The notes beneath the pieces were generated by a model. The model was not told the origin of the DNA. It saw only the letters and a list, made by a program, of their open reading frames with translations, and ran no database searches. The translations under genes were made by a program, and so were the position numbers. A stretch of 20,392 nucleotides of DNA, taken from positions 1-20,392 of the IMG/VR virus record IMGVR_UViG_3300020171_001477; one strand, 5' to 3'. Shown here one piece after another: positions 1 through 19,278 of this stretch. The first letter of the stretch is position 1. Each line of letters starts with the position of its first letter. This stretch comes from a virus.

Positions 1-364
1 TGACCGGTATTTGGTCATCAATCGCTCTGGCCTTAGTGTTATCACCGCTACACGGCACCACCACCACGGTTTTAACGGCAAAAGATGTATCTGCAACCAA
101 AGTGCTGTCTAGGACAGGCAAAATGCCAGTAGCAGTCATTACAACCGTGAAGACTGGAGCCCAAGCCCCTGTCTCTCGCGTGTTTTTCTCCCAAAAAAGC
201 CAGCCGACTTCATCTCCCCAATTTGTAGTTTGATACAAAGAATCCGCATCCTGGTCTGTCACTAAACAGCCAAATTTTACCGCTTTGCGTTCCTGGTCAA
301 CACCGGCTGTATGCTCTCTATAAATCTTTCGACCTTGTCTGCCTTGATCTTCTAAATAACTCAT
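1..364 (-). CDS. Partial second copy of tail-tip / receptor-binding-type protein (3' end off the left edge)
   Basis: The first 121 codons of a gene whose 3' end lies beyond position 1. It begins at the ATG at 364-362 (MSYLEDQGRQGRKIYREH...). Its encoded peptide is identical to the first 121 residues of the gene at 1195-413, which sits directly upstream in transcription order. At the nucleotide level, 1-364 matches 832-1195 except at positions 128, 131 and 248, all third codon positions and all synonymous. Identity stops four bases upstream of the start codon, so the duplicated unit begins at the gene start. The ribosome-binding site is weak (only a CCGG-A-rich leader). Location after the tail hub and the shared N-terminus suggest a tail-tip or receptor-binding protein with a virion-attachment N-terminus, but no family was recognised. 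Whether the C-terminal part also matches cannot be seen here. Confidence 0.75.
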   Translation of the reverse strand, partial: MSYLEDQGRQGRKIYREHTAGVDQERKAVKFGCLVTDQDADSLYQTTNWGDEVGWLFWEKNTRETGAWAPVFTVVMTATGILPVLDSTLVADTSFAVKTVVVVPCSGDNTKARAIDDQIPV

Positions 365-412
365 TTTTTTACCGGAGTGTCGTAACCCTAATCAAGATTA
401 GATTTACCACAC
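365..412. other. Short intergenic spacer with a 14-bp palindrome
   Basis: This is the 48-bp gap between the two tandem tail-tip genes. It contains CTAATC-AA-GATTAG at 388-401, two 6-bp arms around a 2-base centre. No T-run follows it on the minus strand, so it does not look like an intrinsic terminator. It may be an operator, a recombination remnant or chance. Confidence 0.3.
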
Positions 413-1195
413 TTACTCTAAATAAAAGTTAAAAACATTACCCTGCGTGTCTGTATTTAAAACCAAATTAAACTCAGGAAAAGTAACTCTAAATTCTGCG
501 TCTGGGTCACCTTGTCCGGGCAAAGCAACAAAATAAGCATAAGTAGCTATCCCCACTAGTTCTTTGATTCCCGGATAAATTCTGCCAATTTTAAAAGGAG
601 GTGTATTGTCTATAAACATCGTAAGAGGATCAATTGGTATTATAGCTAATATTTCGCCACCCGGAGTTGGTGTCCAACCACCAGCACCATCAGCAATTAC
701 AGGCCGTCCTGTTGTGCCCCCTAAATCCTCAATATATAAAAATCCGGTGCCTCCTCCAAATTCTAAGGGGGTAAAAATCAATTCATAATCGAGATCCGAG
801 CTGGCCTGCATCACCAATCCGAAGTCCCCACTGACCGGTATTTGGTCATCAATCGCTCTGGCCTTAGTGTTATCACCGCTACACGGCACCACCACCACGG
901 TTTTAACGGCAAAAGATGTATCTGCAACCAAAGTGCTGTCTAGGACAGGCAAAATGCCTGTGGCAGTCATTACAACCGTGAAGACTGGAGCCCAAGCCCC
1001 TGTCTCTCGCGTGTTTTTCTCCCAAAAAAGCCAGCCGACTTCATCTCCCCAATTTGTAGTTTGATACAAAGAATCCGCGTCCTGGTCTGTCACTAAACAG
1101 CCAAATTTTACCGCTTTGCGTTCCTGGTCAACACCGGCTGTATGCTCTCTATAAATCTTTCGACCTTGTCTGCCTTGATCTTCTAAATAACTCAT
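413..1195 (-). CDS. Putative tail-tip / receptor-binding-type structural protein
   Basis: A 260-residue protein whose ATG (1195-1193) overlaps the TGA of the upstream tail-hub gene as ATGA, so it is probably translationally coupled to it. The N-terminal 121 residues are duplicated exactly in the next gene (364-1). The C-terminal half is rich in Gly, Pro and Thr with alternating hydrophobic residues (for example residues 150-190), consistent with a beta-rich virion protein. There is no signal peptide, membrane segment or enzyme motif. An IPVSGD motif near residue 118 resembles an LPVSGD motif in the small protein at 10986-10645; such PVSG motifs occur in beta-structured phage proteins. Assignment as a tail-tip or receptor-binding component rests on gene order and on the duplicated N-terminus. 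Another baseplate or tail-accessory role is equally possible. Confidence 0.6.
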   Translation of the reverse strand: MSYLEDQGRQGRKIYREHTAGVDQERKAVKFGCLVTDQDADSLYQTTNWGDEVGWLFWEKNTRETGAWAPVFTVVMTATGILPVLDSTLVADTSFAVKTVVVVPCSGDNTKARAIDDQIPVSGDFGLVMQASSDLDYELIFTPLEFGGGTGFLYIEDLGGTTGRPVIADGAGGWTPTPGGEILAIIPIDPLTMFIDNTPPFKIGRIYPGIKELVGIATYAYFVALPGQGDPDAEFRVTFPEFNLVLNTDTQGNVFNFYLE

Positions 1196-3303
1196 TTTCT
1201 AATCTCGTTCGCGGTGTCTCCGCGTGTTACGTGTTTATGCAAATAATTTATAGTATCTTGGGGCAAAGTCTGTTCTAAAGTAGGATCCGGAGGTGTATCA
1301 CGCATATCGATTATGGTTTGTAGCCCTCCCTCACCAAACGTATATGTTACACTCTTTAAGTTTCCATTTAATTTAATCATTTGCGCGCCAGCCATTTTGA
1401 CCTGTCCCACAACCCGATCCCTAAACTGATTCATTATTTTTGCCGCCTCAGAGGCAGCTAACGCAGTAATTATCTTTTCGTTGAGTGGTATTGCCGGATC
1501 ATAATCCACTGCCTCCGCACCGTCATTGTTAAACTGTCGCAAAGGGAATCTGGCAAATTCCATCCTGCTCAGGTACTCAATGTTAGGCCCTGTTCCCGTG
1601 CCATAGTCCCAAGAAACAGGATAATATTTCCCAGCGAAATTATAACGAGTTGTGCCCCATGTGTCCTCTTTGCTATCTGCCTGCCAGACCACAGAAATTA
1701 TAGTTTCTAATGTATGCTGCTCCCTCAAGTTTGCTTGTGACCACAAATGCTTTGACGCAGAAGGAGAAATCCCAGGCAAATTATCAATCGCAGAAGGGAT
1801 TACGGCTTCAACATTTTGCGTCAAATCAGGCGGATAAGACACGCGAAAAATACCAAGAGCCTCATTTTCCACAACTACCGTTCCAAGGGTCGGCCGCTGT
1901 CGATACGGGTCTTCATCCGTTACAACCCAATTATAACTTAGATGTGCCCAGGAGGCTGTGTTTTTGGCCACTGACGGGGTACGGACTCTAGGGATTATGC
2001 AATAGTCTGCCCAAAGCGGCGAGGGGGGGGAAAAGTGAGAATAATTGTCAATTATAGAAACTCGCCTCGCCTCCCAAAACTTAATTTGGTCGACGTAATA
2101 AGGGTCTATTTGATAGCACTGCCGATAATGACTTTTTATCGCATTTGCAAGTTGCATCGCTAAATTGTAATTTCCAAGTATCTCTATTCCTCCCGATATC
2201 GTCGTAAGAAGCAAAGCGATATGGAATTCAAGTCGACTTGAAAACCACAAAGTTCTAACTGATGCGTCGCTAACACCTATTGCCTCAAGAAGCCTCCACA
2301 TTGGGATATATTCCCCAACTTTAAAGTTAGAATAAGGAACCGGAACTCGAACAATATTTTCACAACCCAAAACTCTTCTTAATTCAATATCCTCCTGCTT
2401 GTCCAGGCCGCTGGAGGAAAGAGGAAGCGCGGTCGGTGCCCACATTTCATAGGATATATTCTGACTTGTAGAAGCAACCAGCTTCGTCTCAACCTTCTTT
2501 TCAAATTTGACAGTAACTTTTTGGGGACGTATTCGACTAAGTTCCTGCCTGTAAAGAATTCCAGGCCCGGTTTTTTCATAAGCCTGAGCTTGTAAAAGAA
2601 GATCAATCTCAGCTCCATCAAAATAATCTATGCTGTAGACATAAACCTTCCCGTTTGGCAGTATTCCCAAATTCATCCTTGACCTGGCGAGCAAATTAGC
2701 AAATCCAGAATAAACATCTACGCCCTCTAACTCAACGTTTTCAACAATATAAGAATGATCTGCTTGACTAACAGTAGAATCAAAATCTATGTCCATTTTC
2801 CCCATTTCTATTTCGAGAATTTCTTTTATAGAGAATGGCTTTCCGTCGTTTTTAACTGACCATGGCAGGTATCTCCCTACAGAATAGGTGTCTATCGCTG
2901 CCCGCAAAGAAGCGGGGTCTAAAATAGGAGAGGTTACAGAAATACCAATTTCGTTTTTTTGCCTAGTCTTATTATACGCGCAATAGAATTTCTTACCACG
3001 CCACGAAAACCTTACGTCTCCCAGTTGCCACATTGTATGGAAATCATCTACCCCTTTCCCTTGCATGAGATAGACCTGATTAAACTCCAATACGCGAGAC
3101 TGAAATCCTGTAAAATTTGTGCCTCCAAACACCTCTAACTTAATCGTAGTGGGGTTAGGGACCGCTTTTAGTTGGTTATCCAAAGGCCCATTAGGCACTA
3201 CAAAAGAAGTGAAATAGGGAGACGGGCCAGCCGTAAGCGACCAACTAAACTCGTGCTGGATCATAGGCACATCGCCAATTATTACGCGAGGCTCAGACCA
3301 CAT
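1192..3303 (-). CDS. Putative tail hub / tail-associated protein
   Basis: A 703-residue protein starting MWSEPRVIIGDVPM at an ATG that overlaps the preceding TAA (TAATG). An 8-base G tract just upstream (3318-3311 on the minus strand) sits at ribosome-binding-site distance. The N-terminal 120 residues look beta-rich, and the body contains lengths typical of tail hub or Tal-type proteins (a segment around residues 150-240 reading as extended strands with Tyr and Asp). I see no lytic or protease motif. Its place after a large tail protein and before the tail-tip genes fits a baseplate or tail-tip hub. A C8 homopolymer on the coding strand (2030-2023) encodes Pro-Pro near residue 425 and is a potential slippage site. 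The assignment is from position and general character, not from a confident family match. Confidence 0.5.
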   Translation of the reverse strand: MWSEPRVIIGDVPMIQHEFSWSLTAGPSPYFTSFVVPNGPLDNQLKAVPNPTTIKLEVFGGTNFTGFQSRVLEFNQVYLMQGKGVDDFHTMWQLGDVRFSWRGKKFYCAYNKTRQKNEIGISVTSPILDPASLRAAIDTYSVGRYLPWSVKNDGKPFSIKEILEIEMGKMDIDFDSTVSQADHSYIVENVELEGVDVYSGFANLLARSRMNLGILPNGKVYVYSIDYFDGAEIDLLLQAQAYEKTGPGILYRQELSRIRPQKVTVKFEKKVETKLVASTSQNISYEMWAPTALPLSSSGLDKQEDIELRRVLGCENIVRVPVPYSNFKVGEYIPMWRLLEAIGVSDASVRTLWFSSRLEFHIALLLTTISGGIEILGNYNLAMQLANAIKSHYRQCYQIDPYYVDQIKFWEARRVSIIDNYSHFSPPSPLWADYCIIPRVRTPSVAKNTASWAHLSYNWVVTDEDPYRQRPTLGTVVVENEALGIFRVSYPPDLTQNVEAVIPSAIDNLPGISPSASKHLWSQANLREQHTLETIISVVWQADSKEDTWGTTRYNFAGKYYPVSWDYGTGTGPNIEYLSRMEFARFPLRQFNNDGAEAVDYDPAIPLNEKIITALAASEAAKIMNQFRDRVVGQVKMAGAQMIKLNGNLKSVTYTFGEGGLQTIIDMRDTPPDPTLEQTLPQDTINYLHKHVTRGDTANEIRK

Positions 3304-5222
3304 TAGTAGACCCCCCCCGTGTTTGCCAAACCTGCAACGTAAAGAAAATTTTGAGTGAAACTGGCGACATATAGAGTGATTTCACCTAAACCCGCAGCAG
3401 TGCCAGAACCCGCACCCACGCGCTTTTTTTGGATATTGCGCTGGATGTCAAGCTGGATATACTCTGGCCCCAGGCTCGGAGGTTCCCAAATTCCCAAATT
3501 CGCAAGCTGTAAAACCTGAATACTCCTCCGAAAAAGTCTTTGCTCCCCTAAACTATATATATTGTAAGTGTTCGGCTTGCCATCCCATATTTTTTGATAC
3601 GTAATCCCTGCATTTTTATTCATCGTGATAGTCTCTGATAACTGAATTATCTGAGACGACGAGCGAGGAGCAATAAAAGTAATTGAGCCGGACACTGCGT
3701 AAGTGTGCGGATTAATCCTGTAATTTTCGTTCTGAGCGACATAGTTTTGCCCCGATTGCGAAAAGTTCGTTAATCCAAGCACATCGTAAGCGTGCTTGAC
3801 AAGCCATGGTCTTATCGTATTAATGTAAATATCGTTTATTCCTGTATCTAAAACAACTGCGTCTCTCGAAATCTGCGCAGAATAATTGACCGTGACCGTC
3901 ACGGGTGCTAAAGAATTAAATCCAGCCTCACTTAATCCATACTCTTGACCCAAATTTACGCTATAATCACATTGTGCCAAAACAATACTCGCTACATTTA
4001 GCTCCGATTCGCTGTCATTTGTCAATAATTCGTTATAAACGAGAGTAGAGTTGCATATCTTTTGCTCCATCTCTTCTCGAACATTTTCGCTTATTAGCTC
4101 GTAAGCGCCTCCAAGAGACGTAAGAATCGAAGCTGCCCAAGTTTTACCGGCTAAAGTGTAGTTCGCCAATGCCGAACTGGCACCACCGGCGGTATAAGTT
4201 AAAGTAAAATTAACGGTGCGTCTCCGGCTCCCAGGATAAGCAATAGTAAAATTGGCATCTCGTCTATACCCATAACCTACTGCGTCAGCCGGCAACTCGC
4301 AAACAAGCGAGAATCTATAAAATCGCAAGGTGTCATCATCGCTTGTGTTTGAAATTAAGGCTAAATTCGGCACAGCCAAAAATCCCGTGTTTGCCGTATG
4401 ACCGTATGAATACTGCGGAGAGCCACCAAAGCTCATTGTCAAATCTTTGTTTTTTTGCCTTAATGCTATCTCTGCCGTATCCGCGCTGCTATGGGACACA
4501 GCAAACTCACATGAAAAAGAAAGAGTATTATATTGTTCGGAAAGAGTAAAATTATTGTAGCTGGCTGGTATGCTATAACTATTATAGACCACCGCTATAG
4601 TAGTCTTTTCTTGATACCTGCGTGAAAACGAAAGAATTTTGTTTTCCTGCTCGTAACTTACCGAGCTGTGCAAGAGCTCCGCAGACCCTACCAGACCAGC
4701 AGCAATCGCATTTGCCCATGTCGGACCGTAAGTGTCATAATTCTGTTTTGCCGTTTTTACACCGCTTCCGCCGTCAGGAGAACCGGTATATTTCCCAGAT
4801 ATATTAACGATTTTTCGCTGCTGGATACTCTGCTCCATAGCGATTTGGGCCTCTTGGCGAAAGTCGTAGCCCGTTAAATCAGCAGGAAGCGAAAGCTCCA
4901 AACTGAATTTGTATGCCCGTGACCTGGCAGTCGAAAGCTCGTTTGTGATCTTGTCCAAACTTGCCTCTTGTAGAAACCCCGTGTTTGCAGAATGAGAAAA
5001 AGAATATTCCGCAGTTGCTCCAAACGTAAGAGTAAACGTCGCGTATCTGTCCCTTAGCTTCGATTCGGCTAAGGCGCAAGCCGTGACAAAATTTGACTCT
5101 GTGTCTGACGTTACAACAAACGTACACGAAAACACCGCTTTCGTATAACTCTTTGAGAAAAAGAATTTGTCGTAGATATTCGGGATTGTGTATCCGTTAT
5201 AAACCGCTGTTATATCCGCCAT
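3303..5222 (-). CDS. Large tail structural protein with tandem internal repeats
   Basis: A 639-residue protein with start ATG at 5222 preceded by GGGGA. It contains two clearly homologous domains of about 200 residues: roughly residues 5-206 and 209-400. Both begin with a VYN-[GS]-Y-[TS]-IP motif, then share FSC-[TE]-F, an H-[ST]-ANTGFL motif (residues 77-84 and 275-282), an S-L-x-x-[LE]-L-PAD-x-x-GY motif, and a TWA-x-x-I element near the end. Residues about 410-639 look like a diverged third copy (PW-x-x-x-H-A-Y-D-V-L-G-L, then a Y-rich strand region). No membrane or enzymatic motif is visible. Tandem beta domains in a tail module suggest a tail-tip, tail-shaft or baseplate ring component. 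The gene ends ACG GGG GGG GTC TAC TAA, overlapping the next start. Confidence 0.55.
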   Translation of the reverse strand: MADITAVYNGYTIPNIYDKFFFSKSYTKAVFSCTFVVTSDTESNFVTACALAESKLRDRYATFTLTFGATAEYSFSHSANTGFLQEASLDKITNELSTARSRAYKFSLELSLPADLTGYDFRQEAQIAMEQSIQQRKIVNISGKYTGSPDGGSGVKTAKQNYDTYGPTWANAIAAGLVGSAELLHSSVSYEQENKILSFSRRYQEKTTIAVVYNSYSIPASYNNFTLSEQYNTLSFSCEFAVSHSSADTAEIALRQKNKDLTMSFGGSPQYSYGHTANTGFLAVPNLALISNTSDDDTLRFYRFSLVCELPADAVGYGYRRDANFTIAYPGSRRRTVNFTLTYTAGGASSALANYTLAGKTWAASILTSLGGAYELISENVREEMEQKICNSTLVYNELLTNDSESELNVASIVLAQCDYSVNLGQEYGLSEAGFNSLAPVTVTVNYSAQISRDAVVLDTGINDIYINTIRPWLVKHAYDVLGLTNFSQSGQNYVAQNENYRINPHTYAVSGSITFIAPRSSSQIIQLSETITMNKNAGITYQKIWDGKPNTYNIYSLGEQRLFRRSIQVLQLANLGIWEPPSLGPEYIQLDIQRNIQKKRVGAGSGTAAGLGEITLYVASFTQNFLYVAGLANTGGVY

Positions 5223-6572: not shown

Positions 6573-7673
6573 TTATACTCCTTTTGCTTGTAAATACGCC
6601 TCTAGCGTCCTTCTGCCTACGCTTTCTTTCTCCAAATCCATGTATCCTTGCCATTTCGTACCCATCAAGATTGCTTTCCCAACTAAAAAATTGCCTGCTC
6701 TGTCGTAATAGAGTGGATCGTCTAATCTTTCCCTAATAAGCGTCGTAAATTTCCCATCTTTTTTTATCTCCTCTTTTGGAATGTGCACAGATGCAATTTG
6801 GGCCATTTCCGCAGGAGTTTCAGCCATAAATTTTTTTCTACCCGTTAAACTTTGTACTACTCTATTTGCAGCGTCTTTAAACTTCTTTCTAGTTTCCGTC
6901 TCGGCATTAAAACCGGTTCGGGCCCAAACGTAAGCCCCATGCGATAGACCCGCTTCTAAAAAAAGCCTACGAAATTTGAATTTATCGTAAAACGTAAGTG
7001 CATCACGCAGCGCCTTAGGTGCCTTACCCCCTCCTTGTTTATAAAGAACAAGAGCTTCTTGTTCCACAGTTTTGTTTATAAAATCAACGCTTATTATCAC
7101 GACACCCTCATCGCTATTTGCTTCGATCCGTATTGCAGAATATCCTCCGAATATTTTTATTTTCACATCTTTTCCTAAGACAGAAAGGGCTTGTAAAAGA
7201 TCGTCTTTTGTTAGGGATTCCGGCGCAAGAAGATGTTTAAGAGTTTCTTTTTCTGCGGGACTAAAGCCGGCGTATCTAAAAAAATCAAGCTTTTCCCTAG
7301 CCTCAAGATACAGGCTCGTCGTAGCAATAAGCTTAGATCGCGCTTTGCTGAATCTCTCCCTTTGCTGTTTTACTCTGCGGCTAAAAAGATCGTGTCTCTC
7401 CGTCCCCTCGGCCTCTTTACCCAGTGCCTCCTCTTGCTTTTTTAAAGTTGCCTCGATTTTATCTCTTTTTGCTTGTTGCTCCGCAACCCCCTTTGCCAAC
7501 TCGGATACTTTTTCTTGTTGAGCCCCTTCTGATTCGCGCATGTAATATAGTTTTTGCCCTTTCCCCCCTTCCACCTCACACACAGAATTTGGATCTTGTG
7601 CCAAAAGCGCCTGTGCCGCCGCAGAAGATAAAGGTCTACCGCCAGGACGATCACACCCAAATCGTATTATCAT
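6573..7673 (-). CDS. Shared N-terminal module plus acetyltransferase-like C-terminal domain
   Basis: A 366-residue protein. The start is the ATG at 7673, one base after the upstream stop and preceded by AAAGGA. An in-frame ATG at 7757 would add 28 residues overlapping the previous gene and lacks the conserved beginning. Residues 1-32 carry the shared motif MIIRFGCDRPGGRPLS with Cys7 and Cys32, the only cysteines in the protein. Residues about 55-118 form a charged helix with KKQEEALGKEAEGT. Residues about 180-260 (IRIEANSDEG, then HGAYVWARTGF) resemble the core of GNAT-fold domains seen in phage virion and polyvalent proteins, where a G-Y-x-x-W-P-R-x-G-F motif occurs; here it is G-A-Y-V-W-A-R-T-G-F. 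Acetyltransferase activity is not shown, because a clear acetyl-CoA loop is not obvious. Its neighbour (8709-7675) is a paralogue in the N-terminal half. Confidence 0.65.
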   Translation of the reverse strand: MIIRFGCDRPGGRPLSSAAAQALLAQDPNSVCEVEGGKGQKLYYMRESEGAQQEKVSELAKGVAEQQAKRDKIEATLKKQEEALGKEAEGTERHDLFSRRVKQQRERFSKARSKLIATTSLYLEAREKLDFFRYAGFSPAEKETLKHLLAPESLTKDDLLQALSVLGKDVKIKIFGGYSAIRIEANSDEGVVIISVDFINKTVEQEALVLYKQGGGKAPKALRDALTFYDKFKFRRLFLEAGLSHGAYVWARTGFNAETETRKKFKDAANRVVQSLTGRKKFMAETPAEMAQIASVHIPKEEIKKDGKFTTLIRERLDDPLYYDRAGNFLVGKAILMGTKWQGYMDLEKESVGRRTLEAYLQAKGV

Positions 7674-7674
7674 C

Positions 7675-8709
7675 TCAATCCTTTTTTTCTGGTAAGAACG
7701 TAATATAAAATAAATTTCCAAGCGGTCTCGGAATTGAAAACTCCCGATTCTCTTCATTCATAGCCATATACTCATGGTAATCACTCAGCGGATGCAAGTC
7801 AATCACCCCGTCGTCAGCAAGTTGCATCAACATGTCTTTAAATTCAGGTAGAGAAATATTAGAATTCTTTTTCAATTCTGCATAAACCTCACGAATATTA
7901 GATGTCGCACTAAGACCGTGTGACTGGGCCTTGTTTTTTTTATCCGCTTCGTCGTAAGCAGACCTAAAATCTTTTAAAAGTTTTGGCGAATATTCTTTTC
8001 GTTCTTTCTCCTCGTAAATGTAGTAACTTTGTCCAGGCCAAGAAACATTATCGTCAGAGTCTTTATTCATTTTCCCCGCATCGATCAATGAGTTCAGCAT
8101 CGACCGAAAGTTTACTCTCGGAATTCCGAGCTTTTCCGCCAACTCAGCTTCGTGCATAGTCGCACCAGCCCCCTTCGGGTCATTTGCATTTCTTTTCATC
8201 AACTCTCTTTCTATCCGTTTTTCCAAAGTTTTGGAGACCAACTTCTCCCAAACTAAAGCTTGGGAGGATTTCGTCTCAGGCTTCGTCTCAGGCTTCGTCT
8301 CAGGCTTCGTCTCAGGCGTCGTCTCAGGCTTCGTCTTTCCCCCTACATCTTTTAACAACGCTTTCGCCTCAGCATACTTCGTTTCATCCGCTTTAAGCCT
8401 CTCAACCGCTTTTTGCAGTCTCTCCCTCTGCCGTGCGACCCTGCCGCCTAAGACCCCGTGCTTCTTGGTGCCCTCCTTCGCTTTGCCGAGTGCCTCCTCT
8501 TGCTTCTTTAACCTCGTCTCATGCTTTCCCACCCTCTCCTCAGATTCGACCTTCTCTGCGATGCCTTTGCGGCGATAGTACTTAGGATTATCGGGTTTAC
8601 TGCCAACGCCGAGACAAACAGAATCCTTATCTTTTGCCAATAAAGCGCGCGCTGTGGTCGGCGAAAGGGTCCTCCCCCCAGGTTTCTCACAGCCAAATCG
8701 TATTATCAT
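7675..8709 (-). CDS. Shared N-terminal module, KPET-repeat linker and winged-helix-like C-terminal domains
   Basis: A 344-residue protein with ATG at 8709 overlapping the upstream TGA as ATGA, preceded by GGGGG. Residues 1-32 are the shared motif MIIRFGCEKPGGRTLS with Cys7 and Cys32, its only cysteines. Residues about 60-120 are a charged coiled-coil-prone helix with KKQEEALGKAKEGT. Residues 125-147 are a Lys-Pro-Glu-Thr tandem repeat linker encoded by a 12-bp DNA repeat. Residues about 150-225 (EAELAEKLGIPRVNFRSML, then LIDAGK) look like a winged helix-turn-helix, and residues about 268-340 (SLPEFKDMLMQLADDGVI) look like a second winged-helix-type domain. The layout suggests a DNA-binding effector on a common adaptor. 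Function is unknown. It lies between the tail-tube gene and its paralogue. Confidence 0.65.
   Translation of the reverse strand: MIIRFGCEKPGGRTLSPTTARALLAKDKDSVCLGVGSKPDNPKYYRRKGIAEKVESEERVGKHETRLKKQEEALGKAKEGTKKHGVLGGRVARQRERLQKAVERLKADETKYAEAKALLKDVGGKTKPETTPETKPETKPETKPETKSSQALVWEKLVSKTLEKRIERELMKRNANDPKGAGATMHEAELAEKLGIPRVNFRSMLNSLIDAGKMNKDSDDNVSWPGQSYYIYEEKERKEYSPKLLKDFRSAYDEADKKNKAQSHGLSATSNIREVYAELKKNSNISLPEFKDMLMQLADDGVIDLHPLSDYHEYMAMNEENREFSIPRPLGNLFYITFLPEKKD
8269..8335. repeat. 12-bp tandem repeat encoding (Lys-Pro-Glu-Thr)n
   Basis: Five units of about CTTCGTCTCAGG (+ strand) run from 8269 to 8328, followed by a partial sixth. The unit at 8317 has one change (CGTCGTCTCAGG). Being a multiple of three it stays in frame and encodes a flexible KPET linker between the helical N-terminal part and the winged-helix domains. 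Copy number could vary by slippage without breaking the gene. There are no spacers, so it is not a CRISPR array. Confidence 0.9.
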
Positions 8710-9266
8710 CTTAAAACCCCCGATCCAATCAAACCCATATAATAAAGACCTTCTGCATCATTTGTCTTTCGTATCCCATCAAACACACAAAAATAAACAG
8801 TATCTTCAACGCGACTAAATTTGAATTCCTTACCGAAATTGGGCGCCGATTTTTGCAGAATTGCGCAAGGATTGTTCGCCGTGTCTTCTGGCACAAATAG
8901 AAGAGCTTTAGTGTAAGTAGTAGAAGCTAAAGAAGTACCAGGCACAATTGTCCCTGGTACTGTAATAGTGGCCAAAGAAGTTTGGCCTGGGAAAAGGATT
9001 GAAAGAGCAGTTGTGTTCCAGTTTTTGAGCAATGCCGTAATCCTTACGTTCGTCCCTAAAAAAATTTTCTGGGTGATCTCTTCTCCAAATTCGCTAATTA
9101 AAGTTTTGACACCATAATCAATTTCAATATTAACGCCTTTTTCACAGAAGCCCAGTTTTGTGCCCCATCCGGCCTCGCTCGTTAGCGACGTGGAATTCCA
9201 AAAAAGATATCCAGGGACGCGAAGAACTTCAGCCGGGTTTGGATGCGTCGCAAAAGCATATGACAT
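8706..9266 (-). CDS. Putative tail tube / major tail protein
   Basis: A 186-residue protein starting MSYAFATHPNPAEVLRVPG at ATG 9266. The region GTKLGFCEKGVNIEIDYG followed by FGEEITQKIFLGTNVRITALL has the layout of the tail-tube fold: a short N-terminal strand, a long beta-hairpin with a Gly, then strands carrying alternating hydrophobics. Size is typical for a tail tube monomer. Two small palindrome-rich elements precede it, including a 12-bp palindrome TAGGGTACCCTA at 9268-9279 that overlaps the likely ribosome-binding site (AGGG, eight bases before ATG). It ends ATGA-coupled to the next gene. The family match is by pattern, so another tail protein such as a tail-completion or neck subunit is possible. 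Confidence 0.55.
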   Translation of the reverse strand: MSYAFATHPNPAEVLRVPGYLFWNSTSLTSEAGWGTKLGFCEKGVNIEIDYGVKTLISEFGEEITQKIFLGTNVRITALLKNWNTTALSILFPGQTSLATITVPGTIVPGTSLASTTYTKALLFVPEDTANNPCAILQKSAPNFGKEFKFSRVEDTVYFCVFDGIRKTNDAEGLYYMGLIGSGVLR

Positions 9267-9370
9267 ATAGGGTACCCTAATTGCCGTTAAAAACGTTACT
9301 TTTTAATTGGGTGTTTTTACACATAAAAGACAATAACTTTGTCGCCATCGCCACCGTGGAGAGGGTGTGG
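9267..9370. other. Intergenic spacer (104 bp) before the tail-tube-like gene
   Basis: One of the few non-coding gaps in the window. On the minus strand it has a small GTGT-A5-ACAC-like hairpin, the near-palindrome CCACGGTGG, and the 12-bp palindrome at 9268-9279. I see no convincing sigma-70 promoter. A 23-codon ORF (9348-9277) lies within it but has no ribosome-binding site. Confidence 0.4.
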
Positions 9371-10645
9371 TTATGCGTCAGGATATGTCGGAGCGCCAGA
9401 TGTATGGGGTAAATGTTTCGAAAATAGCCTAGCCAGCCAATATTGGATTCTGCCAGTATTCACGGCCGAATCAACAAAAGTGAAATAATCACCTTTCAAA
9501 AAATCAGTTGCTCCTGAGACTAATAGATAGTGTAGTCCAGAAAACATTATCGGCTGAGCCAAGACTATTTCGTCCACCAACAGAGTACCCACGGTTCTAG
9601 AGGCTAAACTAATCTGACATCTAGCCCCTAAGCCAGAATTGTCTTCTTTGAAGACGTCGTACCAGCCTTTTGCTGAAGATCCAATACCTAGCGTTAGGTC
9701 AGTCCATCCGCTTTGTGCAACTAGAGCAACGACCTCGGTTTGCGATCCCAGCCGAATTGTTAAATTACCATCACATGCCGTTTCGCGATAAAACCTAACA
9801 ATCAAAAACGTAGGTTTTGTAAGGTCTAGCGAGACCGAGCCTAAGTTTTGCAAAATGTTGCCGTTATCTAAGAATCGTAAAGATTTGCCTGTAGTAAGGC
9901 CAGGGGCCTTTCTAAAGATAGTAGTTGTCTCACTCGCAAAATTGGTGGCTGCGGACAAAGTCCACCCTGTTGCGGCAAAAGTCGCTCCACTCCCGCTAAC
10001 AGTCTCGAAACTAGGATTGGTAAGGATTCCATCGACTGCCCGTTTAGCATTCATAGAAACTGAACCGCTTGCCGCAGTTCCAAGCTCGATTTCGTCTACC
10101 TTAGACGTTCCTACGCCGTAAAGCAATGCCTCTTCGTTGCCCAGCGTCCTCCCTCCGCTTCTGTCTGTCGCAATTTTAACGCGAATAGTCCCGACGACCG
10201 GTTGGCCAGATTCTAAATCGTGAGAAGACTTGTCTTTTGTGACCGTGTAAACTGTCCCAGACCCAATATTGCTCACATAGGGGGTAATCGCCCCATACGT
10301 GAAATTTCTTTCCGTCACCGTCTCAGAGGCATCAACCATCCCATGATAAATATCGTCCAGTGCGGCCCCAATCGTTGTCGCAATTGAATTGTAGCCGTTA
10401 CGGGCTAGCTCTAAAATCATAGCTTGCAACAAATTCGAATTTGTTAGAAGAGAAGAGAACGAGCTACGAAAAGACGTCGCCGCTGACTGAGTTGCTGAAA
10501 TATGCGTCCCTTCGTAACTTTGCTGTAATGTGTCCAATAAAGTGGCTAAATTAGGAGAGTTTGACGAGCCATACAAAAAAGTCTGATCGAAAATCTTTAT
10601 GGCATTAGCCAATTGTGTCCATAATTCTGTTTTGCTCGCCCCCAT
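9371..10645 (-). CDS. Virion structural protein with a jelly-roll-like C-terminal domain
   Basis: A 424-residue protein starting MGASKTELWTQLANAIKIFD at an ATG overlapping the upstream TAA (TAATG). Residues 1-110 look helical. Residues about 205-370 begin with the NPSFE element (LTNPSFETVSG) and continue through GWTLS and W-T-x-L-T-L-G strands to an LLVDEIVL strand, an arrangement typical of carbohydrate-binding-type jelly rolls. Residues 153-168 contain an IRVKIATDRSGGRTLG segment that resembles the IRFGCDRPGGRPLS motif of the three shared-module proteins, but internal and without cysteine. The likely role is a neck, head-fibre or adhesin-like decoration protein; a sugar-binding role is inference from the fold pattern only. 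Confidence 0.55.
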   Translation of the reverse strand: MGASKTELWTQLANAIKIFDQTFLYGSSNSPNLATLLDTLQQSYEGTHISATQSAATSFRSSFSSLLTNSNLLQAMILELARNGYNSIATTIGAALDDIYHGMVDASETVTERNFTYGAITPYVSNIGSGTVYTVTKDKSSHDLESGQPVVGTIRVKIATDRSGGRTLGNEEALLYGVGTSKVDEIELGTAASGSVSMNAKRAVDGILTNPSFETVSGSGATFAATGWTLSAATNFASETTTIFRKAPGLTTGKSLRFLDNGNILQNLGSVSLDLTKPTFLIVRFYRETACDGNLTIRLGSQTEVVALVAQSGWTDLTLGIGSSAKGWYDVFKEDNSGLGARCQISLASRTVGTLLVDEIVLAQPIMFSGLHYLLVSGATDFLKGDYFTFVDSAVNTGRIQYWLARLFSKHLPHTSGAPTYPDA

Positions 10646-15215: not shown

Positions 15216-16424
15216 TTAACCTCCCATACTCTTTGCAAGTGCATCCGGATTGTTTTTGAGATTTTCTTCTGTTTGCACCCGGATTTTAAATTTTATTTCG
15301 CCGGGCGTGGGAATATCCATCCCCATTGCCACGAAATTCTTACGATTCCTCAAAATGAAATCGTAAACCAAGTCTCTCGCCAAGACCTCTTCGAGTCTTA
15401 AGCGGTTATACTGTATTATCGACTGCGTTGCGCCCCGGTGTATCTGTCCCAAAGCGTAACTTCCAACCGACGGCGCTCCTGTCGTCAATTCCGCTCCAAG
15501 AATCGCGAGCTGTATTTTCGTGTCGGCATAATTCATCAAATCGGAAAGGATGTTATTGCCCGTGCTCCCAGCCTCGTTAAATTCTATTTTGTCAGATTTA
15601 TCCATCACAACCATATGCCGAGACCGAGCAGATTCAAAATCTGATATAATTTTATTAACGCGGGCTTCGGCAGAAGGAAAGCCAGTCCCCAAAGCCGCAT
15701 TGATCGCCGCTTTTGCGGCGTCTATAAACACCGTCATAAAAGGCTTGCTCCAGCTTTCGCATAAATCCGCCCAATACTGGATCACTTTCGATTTTATATA
15801 AGCCAGGTGATACAAAATATCTCCGAGCCCACGATGATACGGGTTTAGCTCCTCCCATTCGTGTATATACCATATGAAGTCCTGCACTGACAGTTCAGCA
15901 TAAGGCTCTATTGCCTTGTCTTCTAGCACTACGAACGAGTCTACAAGTGGACAATAGATCGTCCAGTACATTTTATTCCTGTCTTTTGGGTCTCGCTCAA
16001 TTCGCAGTCGCCTGCGATCCACCTCTTTAATTTGTTTTGGGACGTCCCAAACCAACGTCTGGTACTCTTTCCATCGCTCTTTCTCCCAATATTTCTTCTG
16101 TATCCCAAGCCCAAACAAAACGCCACCATAGATCAAAGATTTCCTTGCATGGGTGAAATCTTCTATCCCGCTTAATGCTCGCATAATAAGCTTCTTTAGC
16201 AGTTTGTCTTGACATTCGATTTCGTAATATTCTCCGCACGCCATGATTGACAGGAGGTGTAATGAGTGAGCAATTGCCGGATCGTTTTTCAATACCTCGT
16301 AATAGCTGTCAGAGCTAGGAGAATCGGCATATTCGTTCGGTATATAGCCGATGTACATACCGGTTACCTGCCTCAGCTCCGTGACGTATTGCGGCATATA
16401 CTGAATTCGCGCTTTAACGACCAT
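15216..16424 (-). CDS. Portal protein
   Basis: A 402-residue protein starting MVVKARIQYMPQYVTELRQV. The pattern matches portals of the Mu gp29 / DUF935-like type: SYYEVLKNDPAIAHSLHLL (pairs of helices), then ARKSLIYGGVLFGLGIQKKYW, a DFIWYIHEWEE stretch, and a long stem-like helix LAYIKSKVIQYWADLCESW. It lies after the terminase and before the protease, as expected. The portal forms the ring at one vertex through which DNA is packaged and to which terminase docks. The ATG overlaps the end of the 48-residue protein gene by 11 bases. It lacks a strong ribosome-binding site of its own, so coupled translation is likely. Confidence 0.7.
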   Translation of the reverse strand: MVVKARIQYMPQYVTELRQVTGMYIGYIPNEYADSPSSDSYYEVLKNDPAIAHSLHLLSIMACGEYYEIECQDKLLKKLIMRALSGIEDFTHARKSLIYGGVLFGLGIQKKYWEKERWKEYQTLVWDVPKQIKEVDRRRLRIERDPKDRNKMYWTIYCPLVDSFVVLEDKAIEPYAELSVQDFIWYIHEWEELNPYHRGLGDILYHLAYIKSKVIQYWADLCESWSKPFMTVFIDAAKAAINAALGTGFPSAEARVNKIISDFESARSRHMVVMDKSDKIEFNEAGSTGNNILSDLMNYADTKIQLAILGAELTTGAPSVGSYALGQIHRGATQSIIQYNRLRLEEVLARDLVYDFILRNRKNFVAMGMDIPTPGEIKFKIRVQTEENLKNNPDALAKSMGG

Positions 16425-16560
16425 GTTTTTTTCTCTTTTCTTTTGCCTCTGCCAAAATCTTAGCTTTTTTCAACTTTTCTAAATCAGGATATATTTTTGC
16501 AAAACATGCAAGGAGTTTTTTTTTCTCTTCTTCTGTCAACCTCTCGTTCTCTGCTTTCAT
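16414..16560 (-). CDS. Small Lys-rich protein, unknown function
   Basis: A 48-residue ORF that is easy to miss because of its size: start ATG at 16560, stop TAA at 16416-16414. AGGAGG lies ten bases before the ATG, and the ATG overlaps the TGA of the upstream ParB-like gene as ATGA. The peptide MKAENERLTEEEKKKLLACF has an acidic helical start, then a strongly basic end (KILAEAKEKRKKH). It overlaps the portal start by 11 bases, so it also couples translation of the portal. No family is recognised. It could be a small assembly factor or mainly a coupling ORF. Confidence 0.65.
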   Translation of the reverse strand: MKAENERLTEEEKKKLLACFAKIYPDLEKLKKAKILAEAKEKRKKHGR

Positions 16561-17954
16561 GCGAATAACTCCTCCTGTCCTGACGTTTTCATTCCTAGAG
16601 ATTTTATAAAACCAGGAAGGAAAGAATAAACGTGCTCATAAATTTCGTTCATTTTATCTCTTTGATCTTTACGATTGCCTACCCTGCCTACTTTTTTTGA
16701 GCCATCATCAAGTATTTTTGAAAGCTCTTTCTCGGTTTTGAAGTGATCAAATATTTTTAAATATTCGTTTGCTTTCGACGCAAGCAATTTTGAAGTACCG
16801 GCCTCGATACTGCTACCTGCACGCTCGAGTATATCTTTACCTCTTGCAGCAGAACCAAAAAGCCGTTTTTCTCGCGAGAGCTTGCTTTTTATAAAGCTCT
16901 GCAAGTTGGCTCGCTCAAAATAATAATCCTCATCTTCTTCAACTTCCCCGTACAAATCTTGTGTTTTCTTTGTCGTGGTAGTTGACGATTTCATCAAATC
17001 GACCATTTCGTTTACCAAATCCCCTGTTACCCTCCTGCCTTTCTTTTCTTGCAGTTTAATCATTTCGAAGAGGCGATATTGCTTTTCTTCGCTAAAACCA
17101 GAGCCGCCGATTGCAACCCCTAAATCCTTATTTACCTCACCCTCCGCCACAAGACCAAAAATTAGCTTAGGCAGATTTGATAAAGCAAACCCCTGAGCCG
17201 CAACTGCATCTTTTAACTGGATCCCAAAAGATTCTAACGCCTCTTTCTTTAACCCTGAGTCTCTAAAAAATTTAGCAGCGTCGATTCCGTCCCCTCTGCC
17301 CTCCGCGATATTTGCCAGAGCACCAATGGCCCGCGCTTCTTTCGCTGAGTTTACCTCCAGGAATCTCACCGCAACCTTTTCGGCGCCGTGCCTCTTTGCT
17401 AATGCAAGACGATTATGACCATTGACCACATAGGTATTTTTATTTTCGGGGTCAGTCCAAACCAGAAGCATACCGGCAAAAATCGGATCGTATTTCTGGA
17501 TACTACTTAGACTCCCTACTTCCCCCGACTTTGTCTGTTCACCCAAAATTTTATATTGAAATCGCTTTGGGTCTGCTAAAATTTTGTCTGGAGAAATCTC
17601 GTCAAGCCGACGATAAACCTCTGCTGCTTGCTTCTCTACACCTTTCACCACTTCTTTTGCTTTTCCCTTTAAGGCGTCGAGCTTCATTTGCATTCGTTCT
17701 TTTGTGTCTTTAAGTGATTTCTCTTTCTTCGTCCCAGGTCGCACTGTCTTTAACGCCTCTTCTTTGCCTTTTATCCGTTCTTTTAGCCGTTCTTTCAATG
17801 AGGCCGTTTTGCTTCCTGCTTTTCGATATCGGAGCGTTTTACCCGTTCTTTCAGATCTAACCGTGCAAATGTCCCCAGGTGGAATTTTCGCAATAGACGT
17901 ATCGGACAATGGGCGCCCACCTGGCTTGTCACATCCAAATCTAATTACGCTCAT
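16557..17954 (-). CDS. Shared N-terminal module fused to a ParB-like nuclease domain
   Basis: A 465-residue protein. The start is the ATG at 17954 (MSVIRFGCDKPGGRPLS), preceded by AAGGGA and overlapping the terminase stop by 14 bases; an in-frame ATG 22 codons earlier lies well inside the terminase gene and is unlikely. Residues 1-30 carry the shared motif with Cys8 and Cys30, the only cysteines in the protein. Residues about 50-105 are a charged helix with KGKEEALKTVRPGT. Residues about 118-225 match ParB-like domains of the DdrB type: FQYKILGE, then YDPIFAGMLLVWTDPE, VVNGHNRLALAKRHG (GHNR at 179-182), and EARAIGALANIAEGRGDG. Such domains bind or cut DNA in phage polyvalent proteins. The C-terminal 200 residues are helical, with a Thr-rich linker near 324-328. 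It lies between terminase and portal, where a nuclease could act during packaging. Confidence 0.7.
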   Translation of the reverse strand: MSVIRFGCDKPGGRPLSDTSIAKIPPGDICTVRSERTGKTLRYRKAGSKTASLKERLKERIKGKEEALKTVRPGTKKEKSLKDTKERMQMKLDALKGKAKEVVKGVEKQAAEVYRRLDEISPDKILADPKRFQYKILGEQTKSGEVGSLSSIQKYDPIFAGMLLVWTDPENKNTYVVNGHNRLALAKRHGAEKVAVRFLEVNSAKEARAIGALANIAEGRGDGIDAAKFFRDSGLKKEALESFGIQLKDAVAAQGFALSNLPKLIFGLVAEGEVNKDLGVAIGGSGFSEEKQYRLFEMIKLQEKKGRRVTGDLVNEMVDLMKSSTTTTKKTQDLYGEVEEDEDYYFERANLQSFIKSKLSREKRLFGSAARGKDILERAGSSIEAGTSKLLASKANEYLKIFDHFKTEKELSKILDDGSKKVGRVGNRKDQRDKMNEIYEHVYSFLPGFIKSLGMKTSGQEELFA

Positions 17955-19278
17955 TTTTTTGTGTCCCTTGAAACGAATAGATGTCAAAACCCTGTGATAC
18001 TTCGCAAAAAGCGACCACATAAGAGAGAGCGGCAGGAGATTGAAAAAACTTGGTTAGAGGTAATTCTATTTCGGCTTTTTCTCGCTCTTCAGGCTGCTTA
18101 TCCGGCCACTTACACTCTTTTAGCTCGTGTATAAGATTCTCACAACCAGCGAAAACATGAATCTTGCTCGTCCCAGTATCGCGTATCTTCAAACAATTTT
18201 GAATAGCCTGCACTCGTCTCAAAGTTCCAATCTGCTTCGTATATTTCCGCTCATCATTTGTCGTGCATTTTATTCCGTTTTTCGCTAACTGCTCTAATCC
18301 TTCTTGATCTCGATAATCACCAATCGATGCCAAAATCCGCTTCCCTTTGCTTTTCTCTATAATAATCGGGGACACATCGTTTATAAGGGTTTGAGTAGCA
18401 AACACCTCATCTATCACGTAATACTCGCGATTAGGGGATATAGCAATAAAAAGACATACGAACGGATTTTGATACCCGCGTTGTATGGCCCGAATTATGG
18501 GCCAATCCTCAATCCCCGTAGGGATTTCTCGAAAAATATGACAATCCTGAAAGTTGAAAACCTTGCCACGCCGAGATACAAACAGACCCTCATATTGTTC
18601 TTTAAACACATTTTCGTCGAGTTCTTTTCTTGCGATTTCGTACTCCTCCCGGCTAAAGGTAGGATTGTCTATGGTGGCAAATTGCCAGGATGCCCAATCG
18701 GAGAAATTCGGATCTTGTGAAAGCCCATTTTCAAAAAAAATCCTAAATAGTCCAGCATCGCTATTTGGCGTCGAAGCGGCTATTAACCGTCCGTTTCTAG
18801 GGCCTAGTCTCGCTCGGAGCATTCTCTCCCATGGAGCTCTTGCTACCTGGGAAGCCTCGCCAAGCACTATCATATCAAGCTCCTCCCCCAACAGAGTCTG
18901 TGCCTTTTCGGTTGACTTCGTCTTTACAAAACTGCCCCAGGGGAATTCTAATTTCCTAGATCCGCGAGAGGCGGATGTGATTTTGGCAGCATCTGTCAAC
19001 CTCTTCCCATCAACATAAATTCTAGATAGAAATTCCAAAGCCCAATCAAATTCTTTATCAGCGAGCTCGTATTGTGACGAGACGCACCAGATACGCTTTT
19101 TTGGGAACATGAGCATAAACGCAATTTCGGCACCTGCCGCCATACTTTTCCCCGATCTCGCTCCCGCTGCAATTGCCCGAAAACGAGCCGTACTTTGGTG
19201 AATTTCTGCTTGCTTCGGGTGAGGTGTATACCCACAACTTTTAAAGAAATTGAATTTGCTTTGTATTTCTGTATGCAT
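17941..19278 (-). CDS. terL: Large terminase subunit (TerL), nuclease motifs degenerate
   Basis: A 445-residue protein with start ATG 19278 (MHTEIQSKFNFFKSCGYTPH); no strong ribosome-binding site. Residues 39-45 (GARSGKS) form the Walker A; residues 135-141 (DMIVLGE) are Walker B with catalytic Glu141, in the variant GE form; residues 163-172 (RLIAASTPNS) are the coupling motif III. The nuclease half is recognisable (RGYQNP at 267-272, VIDE at 288-291, SIGDYRDQEG), but the usual first catalytic Asp (I-D-x-G-Y-x-x-P) is replaced by Gln266, and the C-terminal D-A-L-R-Y element reads AALSY, without Asp. Only Asp321 of the three acidic residues seems retained. It powers DNA packaging into the head through the portal. 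Cleavage ability is doubtful from sequence. Confidence 0.8.
   Translation of the reverse strand: MHTEIQSKFNFFKSCGYTPHPKQAEIHQSTARFRAIAAGARSGKSMAAGAEIAFMLMFPKKRIWCVSSQYELADKEFDWALEFLSRIYVDGKRLTDAAKITSASRGSRKLEFPWGSFVKTKSTEKAQTLLGEELDMIVLGEASQVARAPWERMLRARLGPRNGRLIAASTPNSDAGLFRIFFENGLSQDPNFSDWASWQFATIDNPTFSREEYEIARKELDENVFKEQYEGLFVSRRGKVFNFQDCHIFREIPTGIEDWPIIRAIQRGYQNPFVCLFIAISPNREYYVIDEVFATQTLINDVSPIIIEKSKGKRILASIGDYRDQEGLEQLAKNGIKCTTNDERKYTKQIGTLRRVQAIQNCLKIRDTGTSKIHVFAGCENLIHELKECKWPDKQPEEREKAEIELPLTKFFQSPAALSYVVAFCEVSQGFDIYSFQGTQKNERN

Follow-up and report, generated by a model that had tools for sequence, protein, structure and literature searches.

A probable recent tandem duplication of a putative modular tail-tip gene in an uncultured tailed phage

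The repeated gene start at the left edge of the window

The window, that is, the whole 20,392-nt stretch of DNA that was analysed, makes up the entire IMG/VR record IMGVR_UViG_3300020171_001477, which is classed as linear and ends inside the first of two copies of a repeated gene start (Table 1). The complete copy, gp260, lies in the tail module directly after gp703 and downstream of the gene for the Ig-domain protein, and the order is the same in the relative G001 described below. Neither gp260 nor gp703 had a PHROG or Pfam match (E<=0.001), a PDB sequence search gave no credible match for either module of gp260, and the AlphaFold models were poor (pLDDT 35 for gp260 and 32 for its N-terminal module). 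The earlier note had spoken of a tail-tip gene; gene order and G001 fit this designation, and no family or PDB match speaks for it. gp260 is a two-module protein at the position of a tail-tip component; from that order and that relative we infer its putative tail-tip location, docking role and receptor binding. Since it matched no known tail fibre or receptor-binding protein family, gp260 is regarded only as similar to receptor-binding proteins and is not filed as a member. The gene at 8636-9979 in locus L018, 5' of the relative's gp703 homologue, resembles gp639 by eye, in an unscored comparison (YNGYTIPN.../YNGYTLPN...).

Table 1. Coordinates of the tail-end features and of the portal gene in the window (L005, L006, L008 and L009 are loci of relatives).
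Feature	Position	Strand	Evidence or remark
Probable de Bruijn-graph vertex (k=127): identical stretch at the contig edge	1..127	-	matches 832-958; first mismatch at 128
Copy 1: 5' part of a gene, 121 codons, same N-terminal module, cut by the record end	1..364	-	99.2% identity to 832-1195
Spacer between the gp260 stop and the copy 1 ATG, 48 nt, unique	365..412	-	sequence
Copy 2 (gp260): complete gene, 260 aa	413..1195	-	N module residues 1 to ~144, C module ~152-258
gp703: large gene, presumed tail hub/central tip protein	1192..3303	-	overlaps the gp260 start by 4 nt; homologues at 46%
gp639: tail gene with internal repeat	3303..5222	-	ORF list; no family match
Probable tail tube protein with Ig domain, at the start of the tail module	8706..9266	-	phrog_2175, 3.1e-08
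Portal protein, query used to reach relatives	15216..16424	-	phrog_113, 8.3e-25; 51-56% to L005, L006, L008, L009

At an offset of 831 nt, positions 1-367 and 832-1198 are the same save at three pairs of positions (128/959, 131/962 and 248/1079; 99.2% identity). This identity starts 3 nt before the ATG of each copy (ATGs at 364 and 1195), and the 367-nt match is far beyond chance, the runner-up direct repeat within the window being 114 nt long at 70%. Read on the coding (minus) strand, these differences are GCT/GCC, ACT/ACA and GAT/GAC, each at codon position 3 and each synonymous. Thus, both the 364-bp repeat from each ATG and the three silent third-position differences were found as they had been described from the letters of the DNA. 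The reading frame of copy 1 is open through all 121 visible codons up to the contig edge; the last visible residue, 121, still belongs to the shared N-terminal module (~144 aa), and the C-terminus lies beyond the record. The arrangement is that of a tandem duplication, with adjacent similar copies joined by a unique spacer, for which no second match was found in the window or in the fetched relative loci. This 48-nt spacer links the end of gp260 to the second ATG, and the collapse of a repeat cannot make such a spacer; the genuine second gene start proposed in the earlier note is therefore supported. The spacer (minus strand) also contains a small palindrome, CTAATCTTGATTAG, with a 6-bp stem and a 2-nt loop. 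No clear Shine-Dalgarno sequence was seen upstream of the copy 1 ATG, and copy 1 might therefore be vestigial or poorly expressed; that of gp260 is weak, and GGAG-like motifs occur at several other genes of the window.

Random single-base changes in the repeat stretch would be silent in 23-30% of cases, depending on transition bias, and the observation that all three changes are silent has a P of ~0.01-0.03, which is suggestive of constraint at the protein level. The earlier note had taken the synonymous changes to speak for a paralogue under purifying selection and not for an assembly artefact. The analysis did not support this argument, given such a P and given that alleles of one gene from two strains would look alike, so that silent changes do not alone separate a paralogue from an allele. 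Purifying selection deduced from three silent changes was accordingly rejected as weak.

Inward from the contig edge, the copies are identical for exactly 127 nt, a length equal to the k used at JGI. The published JGI command line for metaSPAdes reads -k 33,55,77,99,127, with 127 as the last k (PMC11584781), and assemblers of such type are known to yield terminal repeats of k-mer length (PMC8116208). Other runs between mismatches are at most 116 nt long and 119 nt separate the last mismatch from the repeat end; these being shorter than 127 nt, the contig edge is the sole merging point at k=127 in the visible repeat. A toy de Bruijn graph with k=127 was built for four models of the unseen continuation (immediate difference, a shared 60 nt, a shared C-terminal half and a further full unit). 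In each of them the rightward unitig started at window base 1, and the outcome was the same for divergent and identical continuations. Since the edge identity equals the highest k in customary JGI runs of metaSPAdes, a contig stop at a branch of the assembly graph is most likely, the k of 127 for this sample being deduced from the number itself. The visible end of the repeat was then most likely set by the assembler and is not a biological boundary, so 364 nt is a lower limit of the repeat length and the true repeat may be longer than seen in the record. Apparent repeat boundaries of this kind, here probably assembler-set, are a trap when metagenomic virus contigs are scanned for partial duplications.

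Relatives and re-assortment of modules

Relatives were reached only through the portal protein, to which proteins from four IMG/VR records are 51-56% identical. An exact 45-nt probe from the repeat found no other record in IMG/VR, from which close records may have been withheld; single-protein searches of IMG/VR with gp260 and gp703 gave no usable relative, nor did searches among phages with gp260, gp703 and gp639, and a plasmid search returned nothing. The sole relative covering the tail end is G001 (IMGVR_UViG_3300010332_000111, 24,641 nt), which is also the only match to the N-module across all of IMG/VR. G001 shares 99.93% identity with QMOK01000024.1, a contig of the MAG titled Chloroflexi bacterium isolate B10_G9 (Guay9). 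In 400 genomes of the phylum of this MAG gp703 was found in that MAG only, and in 396 genomes of its class the portal was found there and in one weak match of 77 residues. Two IMG/VR records with different sample numbers, G001 and G002 (loci L009 and L008), show no difference over 13,822 nt, and G002 breaks off within the gp703 homologue. The window portal also resembles the Mu gp29-type family (phrog_113) of Mu-like phages such as Rhodobacter phage RcapMu (NC_016165.1), with 24-31% identity over parts of the protein, but the tail-tip genes set the window apart from these phages, being without a counterpart in the phage collection. The virus group to which the window belongs has hardly any described members.

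Like the window, G001 and QMOK01000024.1 have a gp703 homologue (46% identity, at the same gene position in both), then a gene with the N-module and then genes with the C-module; unlike the window, they have one N-module, the modules are on separate proteins, and a kelch-type region and further genes come after. Directly after the gp703 homologue, G001 encodes a 457-aa protein (L015 2251-3624) that carries the N-module (residues 9-143 against gp260 12-143, 50%, 2e-37) and has no match to gp260 in the rest of its length. The C-module is found on two other proteins, one of 217 aa (L015 3693-4346; residues 115-214 against gp260 152-257, 35%, 1.7e-10) and one of 493 aa (L015 4346-5827; residues 114-185 against gp260 180-258, 33%, 5.6e-7), the latter ending in kelch repeats (Pfam). 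These two proteins form a tandem pair with a common N-terminal region (34% over 217 aa); the first 86 nt of their genes from the ATG are 79% identical, and an additional 77-nt tandem duplication lies across the start of the gene pair. Between gp260 and G001, the N-module is better conserved (50%) than the C-module (35%). A conserved N-module with exchanged C-terminal parts is therefore seen between relatives, in a comparison with the one distant relative G001, and this supports a modular tail tip in this phage group.

Receptor-binding proteins commonly evolve by keeping a conserved N-module and re-assorting their C-terminal parts. Phage receptor-binding and tail-fibre proteins in general have a conserved N-terminal attachment part and a variable C-terminal tip; gp260 resembles them in its better conserved N-module, in its less conserved and re-assorted C-terminal part and in its late position in the tail operon. 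It differs from them in having no sequence match to the described families, variability between the two copies is not seen in the window, and receptor binding is putative.

Gene pairs anchored at their starts recur in the group. In locus L006, two adjacent genes have nearly identical leaders (~45 residues) and diverge afterwards, and in the window an N-terminal leader is common to two adjacent genes. G001 adds the 217/493-aa pair with its 77-nt duplication and two tandem genes (L015 10733(-) and 11619(-)) that resemble each other at their 5' ends (173 nt, 84%) but not in their C-terminal parts; by eye, the latter two look like BRO-type antirepressors. On these individual cases, it is plausible that module duplication is a habit of these genomes.

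Explanations for the repeat

Taken together, we consider it probable, with appreciable reserve, that a modular tail-tip gene of an uncultured tailed phage was duplicated in tandem, recently and in this lineage alone. Since G001 has a single N-module, the duplication is lineage-specific as far as sampled; events of this kind are common in phages, and the lineage is one that has been little sampled. Probably, the N-terminal module (~144 aa) docks on a tail tip formed with gp703 and the C-terminal one (~108 aa) points outward. Tandem copies that share a docking module would sit at equivalent sites of the virion, which could leave the outward part free to vary or to be swapped by recombination, as is seen across the genes of G001. 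Exchangeable tips of this kind are plausible in the virus group; for the present pair they are a candidate.

How copy 1 ends is a matter of about equal odds. That it carries a different C-terminal part, so that a common anchor would bear exchangeable tips, is what the earlier note proposed and has somewhat less than an even chance. The joining of the N-module in G001 to an unrelated C-terminal part, with the C-modules on other proteins, argues for this ending, as do the stronger conservation of the N-module and the recurrent start-anchored pairs with differing ends; against it, copy 1 is visible only within the N-module. If copy 1 does end differently, an early step of tip diversification would have been caught naturally, in which the anchor was duplicated and the tip then exchanged. 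It is just as credible, and again a little short of even, that the copies match fully or almost fully from end to end, in a plain tandem duplication of possibly at least three units of ~831 nt with no divergent tips. The contig stops at a shared 127-mer, and since 150-nt reads would span a repeat that only just exceeds 127 nt, the failure of the contig to extend hints at continued identity. All four graph models, the one with a further full 831-nt unit included, also start the contig at base 1. However, the paralogous neighbours in G001 differ in their C-terminal parts, and nothing direct comes from beyond the contig edge. A tandem array of tail-tip genes that grows or shrinks, with a near-identical docking module and with C-modules swapped between positions, would let one population display several tips with no dedicated recombinase or reverse transcriptase, neither of which was seen nearby; we think such an array improbable.

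We regard each of two further explanations as having a slim chance. The assembler might have strung together the alleles that a single gene has in strains living side by side, so that no one strain would possess the two copies; every difference is silent, as would be expected of strain alleles, and the contig edge is a probable branch point of the graph, but a chimeric join exactly inside the unique 48-nt spacer would be needed. Alternatively, copy 1 might be a non-functional remnant of a tandem duplication under loss or conversion. Its lack of a clear Shine-Dalgarno sequence, where several other genes of the window have GGAG-like motifs, is in line with this, and the short 77-nt duplication in G001 looks vestigial too; on the other side, the 121 visible codons are open, every difference is synonymous, and the Shine-Dalgarno sequence of gp260 is also weak.

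Neighbouring genes and a shared leader

Several genes near the tail and portal regions drew attention in their own right. The gene at 16557-18020 (-) of the window matches phrog_21, annotated as a portal protein, over residues 145-447 (phrog_21 positions 1024-1328, 2e-48), despite the true portal being the next gene. The gene at 7675-8709 (-), which adjoins the probable tail tube gene, has winged-helix matches (TFIIE_alpha at 6.7e-06, TrmB and Mnd1), and within it a 12-nt tandem repeat at 8270-8336 codes for PETK units. Shortly after its tail-tip genes, G001 has a gene whose product resembles Ser/Thr protein kinases (L015 6929-8116 (+); Pkinase, 4.5e-18).

A leader with the consensus FGC(D/E)(K/R)PGGR.LS was seen near the N-terminus of genes at 7658(-), 8694(-) and 17936(-) in the window and at 2353(+) and 3452(+) in L006. 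The three bearers in the window are otherwise different proteins, and the two genes of L006 adjoin, their leader DNA being nearly identical over ~150 nt. This leader could be a targeting or packaging signal.
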